Positions 3,685 through 10,294 of a DNA stretch of 32,528 nucleotides are shown in pieces; the first letter of the stretch is position 1, and each line of letters starts with the position of its first letter. Location: NCBI GenBank assembly GCA_027008775.1, contig JALVDV010000010.1, forward strand, positions 1 through 32,528. The letters are read 5' to 3'. Both the position numbers and the translations under genes were made by a program. The notes beneath the pieces were generated by a model. The model searched no databases. It saw nothing but the letters and a program-made list of their open reading frames with translations, and was not told where the DNA came from. This DNA is from Candidatus Moraniibacteriota bacterium. GTDB lineage: Bacteria; Patescibacteriota; Minisyncoccia; Moranbacterales; DUUL01.

Positions 3685-4275
3685 TTATTTTGCCAATTTA
3701 CGCTGGCTGGTTGCGTAATCTGGTAAGAGGTATTTTCTGGCCAGGCAGAGGGGAACAATTGTTTGAGCGCTAAGAAATTTCCCTTGGTCCAACATCCGGT
3801 AGGCTTTTTTGATTTTTATTCTGACGATTTCCAGTCCGGCTTCTTTTTCTGAACTTTCCAGTTTTTGGCCGACAAACCGCAAACCTTCAGCAAGAAAAAC
3901 GTGGCTTCTTTCCGAAGACAGTCCGGCAAAAACAAAATAACTGCCTATTTTTTTGATCTTCTCGGCTTGGTAACCCGTTTCTTCGCGAAGTTCTTTGCGA
4001 GCGGAAATAAGTGGGGTCTCCCCTTTCTCTTTTTTGCCTGTTGGTAATTCCAGCAACTTGTGTTGACTGGGATATCTAAATTCTCTAATAAAAATAATTT
4101 TGTCAGCCAAGACGGGCACGACTGTCACTGAACCGCCGGTGGCCAAGAAATAATAATCCCCTTCTCGTCCACTGGGGAATCTAAATTTATCGTGAATAAT
4201 CTTGAACCACTTGTTTCTATGAACCACCTCGGAAAACAATGTTGGCCATTTTCTTTTCCGCTTTACTTGCGACAT
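3685..4275 (-). CDS. NUDIX hydrolase (ADP-ribose pyrophosphatase-like)
   Basis: Nudix box GKKEKGETPLISARKELREETGYQ. Confidence 0.92.
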   Translation of the reverse strand: MSQVKRKRKWPTLFSEVVHRNKWFKIIHDKFRFPSGREGDYYFLATGGSVTVVPVLADKIIFIREFRYPSQHKLLELPTGKKEKGETPLISARKELREETGYQAEKIKKIGSYFVFAGLSSERSHVFLAEGLRFVGQKLESSEKEAGLEIVRIKIKKAYRMLDQGKFLSAQTIVPLCLARKYLLPDYATSQRKLAK

Positions 4276-6647: not shown

Positions 6648-6675
6648 TTGATTTATTGGTTTTTTGTGGTATTAT
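6648..6675 (+). promoter_or_regulatory. Promoter for the tRNA-Ser(GCU) array
   Basis: TTGATT (6648-6653), 16 nt, TATTAT (6670-6675), upstream of all the tRNA-fragment repeats. Confidence 0.6.
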
Positions 6676-6696: not shown

Positions 6697-6829
6697 GGAG
6701 AGGTGCCGGAGTGGGAATGGTCTGAGCTAGCGAAGACTATTCCGGATTTTTAAGTATAAAATCCGCGGAACCACTCTGGTGGGAAATAAAGCGAAAGCAA
6801 GTTAACAGTTTCAAGAGAAAACGCTATCC
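6697..6829 (+). repeat. tRNA-Ser 5' fragment (6697-6714) plus structured insert A (6715-6829)
   Basis: GGAGAGGTGCCGGAGTGG equals the first 18 nt of tRNA-Ser(GCU). The 115-nt insert is repeated inverted at 10097-10211. Confidence 0.9.
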
Positions 6830-6949
6830 GGAGGAATGCCGGAGTGGTTGAACAAGATTCCTCGGTCCGGAATCTTCCCTGCTAAGAACACCTTAGCAGG
6901 GTTCGTCTCAGGAATAATTGTTGGGGGTAGGATATTTAATTTTACATTT
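6830..6949 (+). repeat. tRNA-Ser 5' fragment (6830-6853) plus structured insert B, copy 1 (6854-6949)
   Basis: GGAGGAATGCCGGAGTGGTTGAAC matches the first 24 nt of tRNA-Ser(CGA); insert B is 96 nt. Confidence 0.9.
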
Positions 6950-7069
6950 GGAGAGGTGCCGGAGTGGTTGAACAAGATTCCTCGGTCCGGAATCTTCCCT
7001 GCTAAGAACACCTTAGCAGGGTTCGTCTCAGGAATAATTGTTGGAGGTAGGATATTTAATTTTACATTT
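6950..7069 (+). repeat. tRNA-Ser 5' fragment (6950-6973) plus structured insert B, copy 2 (6974-7069)
   Basis: GGAGAGGTGCCGGAGTGGTTGAAC matches the first 24 nt of tRNA-Ser(GCU). Insert B is identical to copy 1 except one G/A (ttgggggtagg vs ttggaggtagg). Confidence 0.92.
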
Positions 7070-7160
<91 letters not shown>

Positions 7161-7209: not shown

Positions 7210-8493
7210 TCACTTCTGTTTTTGGCAATGTTTTTCAATAATTTCTTTTAGCGGTTTTTTGTCTTTCAATAAAACCAGTTTGATGCCGGTCTGCGCCAAT
7301 TTCTCCTTGGCTTTCGGGCCAATGTGACCGGTGATAACTTGGTCAGCCTGCGCCCAGCGGATAAAACGCCAGCCCCGGCCCTTGTCACCTTGACGAAAAT
7401 GATTTGTCACTTCTTGACTGTTTACAATCTTGCCTTTTTCCTTATCAACATCAACAAGTAAAAAAGTTTTCTCGCCTAAAGTTCGGAAACTCACTTCGCC
7501 GGTGCGCAGAGGAATAGCACAGCGCCAAATGTTATCTTTTTTTAACGGCGGAGCGGGCAGTTGGGAAACTTGTCGTTTTAGCCTTTCTTGAAATCTGTAA
7601 CCTTTATTCCAAGCGGAGGGATAAATTCTGGTTTCTTTAAGCTTGTGGGAACTGATTTCCGTGCTGATTTGACCGATTTCCGGAAATTCTTTTTTGAGAT
7701 TTTCTTCCATTTTTTTGACGAAGCTTGAAGCTTCCTCCACTGTCAGCTCTGCCGGCAAAGTTATCTTTAAATCAACTATATTTTGCCAACCCTGGCGACG
7801 AGTTTTGATTTCGGAAAATTGAATCTGATTATCTTGAAGAAATTTTTCCAGCTTTTTTCTTAATTCGGGATCACTTTTATCAACCAAAATGTCTGTGGCC
7901 GATAAAGCCAGACTGTAGGATTCAAAAACGATGTATCCACCCACTAACAGTGAAAGAATGTTATCTATCAGAGGAAAATATTTTATCAAAAATAGTCCGA
8001 CCAACACGGCCAGCGAAATCAGCACATCCATACGATCGTGTTGGCCATCGGCCAACAAGGCCGGGGATTGATATTTGTTGCCAAAATAAATTTTCAAGCG
8101 AGCGGTCAGTTCATTGATGATCATGGAAGCGACCATCAGGCCGATACCCAGCAAAGTAAACTGGGCTTGATTTTCTTTCAGGTAAAGATTTTTCAGCGAT
8201 TCATAAATCAGAAAAAGCCCGGTGGCAATCAGAATTAGCGCTATTATAAAGCTGGCCAGACTTTCATATTTTTGGTGGCCAAAAGGATGATCTTCGTCAG
8301 CCGGTTTTTCCGCTTTTTTAATTCCAATAAAAGTAATGGCGGAAACCACAATGTCAGAAAAAGAGTGAACTCCCTCTGCTATTAAGGCTTGGCTGTGGGC
8401 GCACAGTCCGGCGGCAACTTTCATAACCGAGAGGAGGAAATTTGCCGCCCCGCCAATGATTGATATCAAGCCGGCTTTTCGATTTAAGTTCAT
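7210..8493 (-). CDS. Cation diffusion facilitator fused to a C-terminal NifB/NifX-like (dinitrogenase Fe-Mo cofactor) domain
   Basis: CDF N-terminus (ALIAEGVHSFSDIVVSAITFIG, LLADGQHDRMDVLISLAVLVG); C-terminus GRGWRFIRWAQADQVITGHIGPKAKEKLAQTGIKLVLLKDKKPLKEIIE. Confidence 0.9.
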   Translation of the reverse strand: MNLNRKAGLISIIGGAANFLLSVMKVAAGLCAHSQALIAEGVHSFSDIVVSAITFIGIKKAEKPADEDHPFGHQKYESLASFIIALILIATGLFLIYESLKNLYLKENQAQFTLLGIGLMVASMIINELTARLKIYFGNKYQSPALLADGQHDRMDVLISLAVLVGLFLIKYFPLIDNILSLLVGGYIVFESYSLALSATDILVDKSDPELRKKLEKFLQDNQIQFSEIKTRRQGWQNIVDLKITLPAELTVEEASSFVKKMEENLKKEFPEIGQISTEISSHKLKETRIYPSAWNKGYRFQERLKRQVSQLPAPPLKKDNIWRCAIPLRTGEVSFRTLGEKTFLLVDVDKEKGKIVNSQEVTNHFRQGDKGRGWRFIRWAQADQVITGHIGPKAKEKLAQTGIKLVLLKDKKPLKEIIEKHCQKQK

Positions 8494-10096: not shown

Positions 10097-10229
10097 GGAT
10101 AGCGTCTTCTCTTGAAACTGTCAACTTGCTTTCACTTTATTTCCCACCGGAGTGGTTCCGCGGATTTTATACTTAAAAATCCGGAATAATCTTCGCCAGC
10201 TCAGACCATTCCCACTCCGGCATTCCTCC
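10097..10229 (-). repeat. tRNA-Ser(CGA) 5' fragment (10212-10229) plus structured insert A' (10097-10211)
   Basis: The same 133-nt period as 6697-6829, in inverted orientation; insert copies differ at 6 of 115 positions, all transitions. Confidence 0.92.
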
Positions 10230-10265: not shown

Positions 10266-10294
10266 ATTATAAATAAACAAAAAGAAAAAGTAAA
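10266..10294 (-). promoter_or_regulatory. Promoter for the tRNA-Ser(CGA) array
   Basis: Reverse complement TTTACT (10289-10294), 17 nt, TATAAT (10266-10271). Confidence 0.5.

Follow-up and report, generated by a model that had tools for sequence, protein, structure and literature searches.

In the usual picture, a tRNA gene consists of a promoter and the tRNA. In many Patescibacteria, members of a large bacterial branch that is uncultivated and has very small genomes, a conserved folded RNA that is partly a copy of the tRNA lies between the two. The closest described systems are T-box riboswitches, integrative elements of tRNA genes, miniature inverted-repeat transposable elements (MITEs) and repetitive extragenic palindromic (REP) sequences, group I/II and archaeal tRNA introns, and the guide RNAs of OMEGA (IscB-type) systems. 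The element is about 80-100 nucleotides (nt) long and its parts follow one order: a copy of the first 10 or 18 nt of the tRNA (R), hairpin 1, hairpin 2, a strand that pairs with R (antiR), usually a run of U, a short tail, and the intact tRNA, whose own 5' end is referred to as R-prime. We describe it from a 32,528-nt stretch of Candidatus Moraniibacteriota bacterium (assembly GCA_027008775.1, contig JALVDV010000010.1, positions 1 to 32,528; hereafter the window), where a copy termed insert A stands in front of tRNA-Ser(CGA), and from 85 copies collected across the Patescibacteria with a covariance model.

Like a T-box riboswitch, the element is a leader RNA that involves tRNA sequence and has a terminator-like stem followed by a U-run. 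Unlike a T-box, it precedes tRNA genes and bears a copy of the tRNA 5' end instead of a codon and a T-box sequence. With the T-box covariance model, cmscan gave no match in the window region (E up to 5), nor at ten element loci (E up to 0.5). T-boxes control aminoacyl-tRNA synthetase or amino-acid genes, whereas the tRNA itself lies downstream of the element in 77 of the 85 copies. No specifier codon was found in a stem I loop; by eye, the hairpin 1 loop (GAG..NNN..GAG type) is independent of the amino acid of the tRNA. With integrative elements of tRNA genes the element shares an interrupted tRNA gene that is restored by a duplicated piece of the tRNA. It differs from them in using the 5' end rather than the usual 3' part, in measuring only about 100-130 nt, in its variable repeat length and in its conserved RNA fold; it contains no integrase or recombinase gene, for which about 100 nt is too short. 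MITE-like and REP-like elements are also short, non-coding, structured and flanked by repeats. The element, unlike these, is confined to tRNA genes, uses target sequence in its closing stem and shows RNA-type covariation with G-U pairs. The terminal inverted repeat of DNA transposons and MITEs is absent from it, the R:antiR pairing being the only one of its kind, and its direct repeats, of about 10-41 nt, are not a target duplication of fixed length. Group I/II and archaeal tRNA introns have in common with it the location in tRNA genes and an internal strand complementary to the flanking exon before the junction, similar to an internal guide sequence or exon-binding site. The element is far too small for such an intron, its second exon copy makes removal needless, and no group I/II catalytic core or Rfam match was found in it. 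Finally, OMEGA guide RNAs also have a 5' end derived from the insertion flank, but the element has no nuclease gene in cis and its guide would be paired with antiR.

A structured RNA family in front of tRNA genes

The lead came from reading by eye the regions upstream of tRNA-Ser genes in relatives, where two distant genomes had the same order of parts. DNA similarity searches with the insert in relatives returned nothing useful, and the exact pattern R-N95..125-R is found in no other genome of the order. A first covariance model, built from four sequences after their folding agreed, at E up to 0.1 matched 29 of the 131 genomes that represent the order, and nearly all of its strong matches are full length and in front of tRNA genes. 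A second model, built from 31 sequences, matched 30 of the 131 genomes at E up to 0.001, 27 of 384 genomes of the class at E up to 0.01, and 10 of 380 genomes of the phylum, seven from outside the class, at E up to 0.001. These genome counts are lower bounds, with only part of the candidates scored, and the E-values of such homemade models are rough. The genomes are metagenome bins, and all of the evidence is comparative sequence. No family of Rfam 15 matched the element in the window region or at ten element loci, and a literature search limited to openly licensed papers found no description of the element. It is an RNA family without earlier description, present in many Patescibacteria and in dozens of species, and insert A is a diverged member of it.

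The R:antiR pairing closes a three-way junction over the two hairpins. Among 84 distinct sequences, pairing is found in 88.9% of cells, compared with 68.4% in shuffles, and in 25 of the 27 pairs both partners have changed. Covariation scores 0.523 (0.166 for shuffled alignments and 0.04-0.11 for slid controls), and hairpins 1 and 2 are supported equally well on a sequence-only alignment. The third helix consists of R, which is host tRNA sequence and varies with the tRNA across the family, and antiR, which fits its own R better than a swapped one (-11.2 vs -8.4 kcal/mol, p 1.2e-6). Many members have a GAG/CGA internal loop in this helix; the window copies are paired throughout. A run of at least five T follows antiR within 20 nt in 73 of the 85 copies, where 2.6 are expected.

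The likeness of R to the tRNA reaches further than the stem. In 30 elements, a set selected on the first ten positions, R and R-prime are 90-100% identical at each position over tRNA nt 1-18, while identity is 10% at nt 19; in the leader it is 70% at position -1 and less than 50% by position -10. Because identity to the tRNA extends beyond the paired part, this suggests that R is kept as a copy of the tRNA. The idea that R shields the tRNA from antiR was not supported when folding was repeated with R removed. In tRNA-Leu genes and some tRNA-Ser genes the junction lies after GTGG at tRNA position 10, and what the element sites have in common is a junction at ...GTGG within the 5' portion of the tRNA gene.

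The 77 copies directly upstream of a tRNA are all on its strand and comprise 57 at tRNA-Ser genes, spanning all four isoacceptors, 10 at tRNA-Cys and 10 at tRNA-Leu. The distance from element to tRNA is mostly 14-50 nt among the 85 copies. The remaining copies are one near tRNA-Thr, one antisense to tRNA-Arg, and six with no tRNA called within 420 nt, including a second window copy (its tRNA lies farther along the array), one masked copy and one at a contig end.

Two types of tail follow the U-run across the family, GATCGAGGCTTTGCCGAGAAA and ATTTACGAAGTAAAT-like hairpins. The GATCGAGGCTTTGCCGAGAAA-type tail may pair with the linker GGCAR after hairpin 2, an extra helix (GGCAR:YUGCC) for which the 42 copies with this common tail give weak support (p 0.0065). 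At several tRNA-Ser(GGA) loci (L120, L168, L169, L203, L204 and L206) antiR no longer fits R. In its place stands an A-rich sequence, CAAAAATTCAAA, whose complement, TTTTGAATTTTTG, lies farther downstream, as though the pairing had been rewired.

Insert A at two tRNA-Ser genes of the window

The CGA locus lies on the minus strand. It begins with R (10229-10212, GGAGGAATGCCGGAGTGG), the 5' arm of the closing stem, identified by its identity to the tRNA 5' end, the direct repeat and the model match. The 115-nt insert A follows at 10211-10097, and the intact tRNA-Ser(CGA), called by ARAGORN and by Rfam RF00005, at 10096-10007, with R-prime as its nt 1-18. Within the insert, hairpin 1 (GAATGGTCT...AGATTATTC, 10184..10211) and hairpin 2 (CGGATTTT...AAAATCCG, 10161..10183) are supported by their fold and by covariation in the family. 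AntiR (CCACTCCGGT, 10146..10155) pairs with R at -20.3 kcal/mol, compared with -8.0 kcal/mol when swapped. The last part of the insert (10097..10145) is a tail from which the U-run is gone (...GACAGTTTCAAG) and a duplicated 14-nt leader, AGAAGACGCTATCC.

R and insert A together form a unit of 133 nt, equal in length to a unit at 6697-6829 on the plus strand. A preliminary description of this DNA had noted both units and the inverted position of insert A upstream of tRNA-Ser(CGA), and the coordinates and ARAGORN calls agree with it. The two loci, as it stated, are in opposite orientation: they form an inverted repeat of 157 nt with 94% identity, the arms being separated by 3219 nt. The direct repeat it saw bracketing the insert is present and extends further than described, over 32 nt (AGAAGACGCTATCCGGAGGAATGCCGGAGTGG, 10243-10212 and 10110-10079) that comprise 14 nt of leader and tRNA nt 1-18. 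The 18 nt flanking insert A here reproduce nt 1-18 of the downstream tRNA exactly.

The second copy (6697..6780, plus strand), identified by genome search, fold and model match, has an R of GCT type, hairpins 1 and 2 and antiR (CCACTCTGGT), and is followed at 6781..6847 by the tail, a leader of CGA type and an 18-mer of CGA type (GGAGGAATGCCGGAGTGG). At this locus, too, 18-mers bracket the insert, but the two are not alike: the first is of GCT type (GGAGAGG...), and the second, behind the CGA leader, of CGA type (GGAGGAA...). Because this second 18-mer and its leader are of CGA type, the tract of insert, leader and 18-mer looks copied from the CGA locus and placed behind the first GCT 18-mer. 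The transfer could be explained by ordinary recombination between the inverted tRNA genes or by insertion of the unit. Next in the array are two 120-nt tandem units: B1 (6830..6949), which begins with a tRNA-Ser 5' copy, and B2 (6950..7069), 97% identical to B1 on repeat analysis. The intact tRNA-Ser(GCT) called by ARAGORN lies at 7070..7159. The GCT gene would have tolerated the incoming unit because further tRNA 5' copies are present in the B array.

A search of the whole genome (929 kb in 11 contigs) found insert A in two copies only (E 9e-75 and 1e-62), each directly upstream of a tRNA-Ser gene, one CGA and one GCT, with the GCCGGAGTGG core that the preliminary description had expected; there are no further copies, unrelated to tRNA genes or otherwise. 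These matches far exceed chance, and a simple genome repeat is excluded by the number of copies. The GCCGGAGTGG core alone is excluded as the mark of insertion by other GCCGGAGTGG sites in the genome that have no insert, and the remaining tRNA-Ser genes, which are GGA (17329-17242) and, elsewhere in the genome, TGA, have a GGCAGAGTGG D-arm and no insert. The specific association with tRNA-Ser genes that had been proposed holds for both copies in this genome and for 57 of the 85 family members, yet is too narrow, as tRNA-Cys and tRNA-Leu genes also carry the element. The argument made from the two loci against simple tandem slippage is right in that insert A did not arise by local slippage; tandem duplication nevertheless occurs nearby, in the B array, and doubled elements occur in other genomes.

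Attenuation, mobility and other possible explanations

We see about an even chance that the element acts in cis to terminate or attenuate tRNA transcription and is copied on occasion from one tRNA locus to another. It lies within the tRNA transcription unit (Ser, Leu or Cys), between promoter and tRNA at a ...GTGG junction; the R:antiR stem and the U-run would act as an intrinsic terminator and attenuate transcription of the tRNA behind it, and R, the tRNA look-alike, would form part of the switch. The step from CGA to GCT in the window would be an instance of such copying. The order of the parts argues for attenuation, since it is that of promoter, 5' arm, enclosed hairpins, 3' arm, U-run and gene. 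A GC-containing stem followed by a U-run, the mark of an intrinsic terminator, is found in 73 of the 85 copies, the two in the window not among them. Promoter-like sites lie upstream of both whole arrays in the window, TTTACT-17-TATAAT at 10266..10294 (minus strand) and TTGATT-16-TATTAT at 6648..6675 (plus strand); they are consensus matches only, and as a scan their count is no higher than in shuffles. In one genus, a single tRNA-Cys locus is filled in two genomes (G023 and G056) and empty in two others (G075 and G076). Both forms share the promoter region upstream of the element, suggesting that the promoter reads through it, and hairpin 1 has undergone compensatory changes between the filled copies, from which we infer that the structure is maintained in place. 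Between element and tRNA no better-than-shuffled promoter was found. An outward promoter at the 3' end of the element (TTGATC...), spotted by eye, was excluded with a score of 7.3 vs 6.9 in shuffles. If the element is a true attenuator, it provides regulation of individual tRNAs unlike that by T-boxes.

Several observations weigh against attenuation. The distribution of the element is patchy: 30 of the 131 genomes in the order have it. The covariance model includes the tRNA-like R and is biased toward tRNA starts, for which the hairpin-2 string CGGGTTTCAAAAGAAACCCNGG, containing no tRNA sequence, served as a control: in 84,980 genomes it occurs in 14 stretches, 13 of them in Patescibacteria, including Moranbacteria and Colwellbacteria, or in bins matching Patescibacteria, and all 13 at tRNA genes. 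The 14th, in an Elusimicrobiales bin, is the hairpin alone. Both window copies lack a U-run after antiR and, having lost it, probably let transcription through. The multibranched stem escaped a simple terminator scan, and free folding was ambiguous as to an alternative antiterminator fold. When 37 full transcripts were folded freely, R and not R-prime paired with the tRNA 3' end (P 0.91), a preference of about 6 kcal/mol that may reflect the multiloop parameters of the energy model. At one Colwellbacteria locus (L160, MHIZ01000012.1, minus strand 3751-3823), attenuation makes no sense because the element is antisense to the 3' end of tRNA-Arg(TCG), which a 16-nt direct repeat, ATGTGCCCCCGGAGGG, restores. 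The idea that R shields the tRNA from antiR was not supported when folding was repeated with R removed.

Some of the same facts suit a miniature mobile element that would insert at GTGG in tRNA genes, recognise its target via antiR and duplicate the target's 5' end, an explanation we regard as possible and hold only tentatively. The duplication would let the tRNA survive, and the U-run and fold would serve the life cycle of the element rather than regulation of the tRNA. Copies flanked by direct repeats of 10-41 nt, the filled and empty forms of the tRNA-Cys locus, the occupation of several tRNA types as well as the antisense tRNA-Arg with a direct repeat of its own, and tandem copies are all consistent with insertion. 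So are near-identical copies (0.02-0.11 distance) at different tRNA-Ser loci of one genome or genus, and the CGA leader and 18-mer that came with the GCT copy in the window. However, the element has no protein gene, near-identical bursts are absent within most genomes, repeat length is variable and the repeats frequently end exactly at tRNA nt 1, and the compensatory changes at the tRNA-Cys locus took place in position. No match to the element was found in viral contigs, phages or plasmids, excluding carriage by them. For 36 of the 85 copies the nearest relative occupies the same tRNA type and for 34 it belongs to the same genus, as vertical descent predicts; for 11 it is in the same genome, vs 1.1 expected. 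Compared by sequence, nearest relatives thus show both vertical descent and spread between tRNA loci. A mobile origin is well supported and is compatible with a role in attenuation: the element would insert into tRNA genes and stay under selection within their transcript. As a true mobile element it would rank with the smallest known site-specific elements and would base-pair with its target. A further proposal, which we think improbable, would unite the two. An RNA element of about 100 nt would target tRNA genes by pairing antiR with the tRNA 5' end, move at the RNA or DNA level into the ...GTGG junction as a unit of element, leader and tRNA 5' copy, and then govern tRNA transcription via a terminator stem that is half its own and half host tRNA, a parasite or regulator wearing its target's 5' end. 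Now that a model and many instances of the family are at hand, the choice between attenuator and mobile element is directly testable.

The unit that entered the GCT locus consists of exactly element, leader and R-prime, the identity of R and R-prime reaches up to the junction, and R pairs with the tRNA 3' end in free folding. Taken together these would fit a segment resembling a tRNA intron, bounded by the GTGG junction and the end of R-prime, that is removable from or insertable into the D-loop at the RNA level, with antiR aligning both GTGG sites. We consider this unlikely: there is no known splicing signature and no Rfam intron match, the folding preference may stem from the multiloop parameters, and R-prime by itself completes an intact tRNA, which leaves no need for splicing. 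Removal or insertion at the two GTGG sites is also an ingredient of the combined proposal above. Mere tandem duplication, with gene conversion between the two neighbouring inverted tRNA-Ser genes, producing a functionless array, accounts for the B array, which is a tandem duplication, and for the A copies, which lie in an inverted repeat 3.2 kb apart and whose tract ends match and fall within shared tRNA sequence. It is very likely the explanation of the A copy at the GCT locus. As an account of the family as a whole it is refuted, and as a complete reading we give it slight credence, since it leaves unexplained why dozens of genomes share one covarying fold at tRNAs for Ser, Cys and Leu. A separate small RNA of about 95 nt, starting with the tRNA 5' copy, using the tRNA promoter and acting in trans, for example as a guide or decoy, would explain why the identity of R to the tRNA exceeds the needs of the stem, including nt 1-6, and why the 3' end is a U-run. 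Yet no partner protein was found, antiR occupies R, and the position is always in cis to the same tRNA, and we judge it the most improbable of these readings.

Other features of the tRNA loci and the window

The B units contain an exact 16-nt antisense (AACACCTTAGCAGGGT, at 6887-6902 and 7007-7022) of the anticodon arm of tRNA-Ser(GCT) (7099-7114), which forms a 10-bp hairpin with its own sense copy. As a candidate second member of the family the B unit was rejected, the model not detecting it (about 11 bits, E about 1).

In other genomes, nested tRNA-Ser genes were observed (L084 in G015; L092 and L081 in G017): a split tRNA-Ser houses, in its anticodon loop region, a second and intact tRNA-Ser flanked by CCCCGTAGAAAAGC / GCTTTCTTACGGGG, and one case has several layers of nesting. 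At L092, L116, L124 and L169, tRNA-Ser D-loops or element tails have received palindromic repeats (CCTGCCTGCCGGCAGGCAGG and TCCGCCAGCTGGCGGA, for example), so that these loci collect several kinds of insert. Elsewhere in the window, positions 1-484 are a coding tandem repeat with units of 111-123 nt, and 7210-8493, between the two tRNA-Ser loci, encodes a cation-efflux protein with a fused C-terminal Nitro_FeMo-Co domain.
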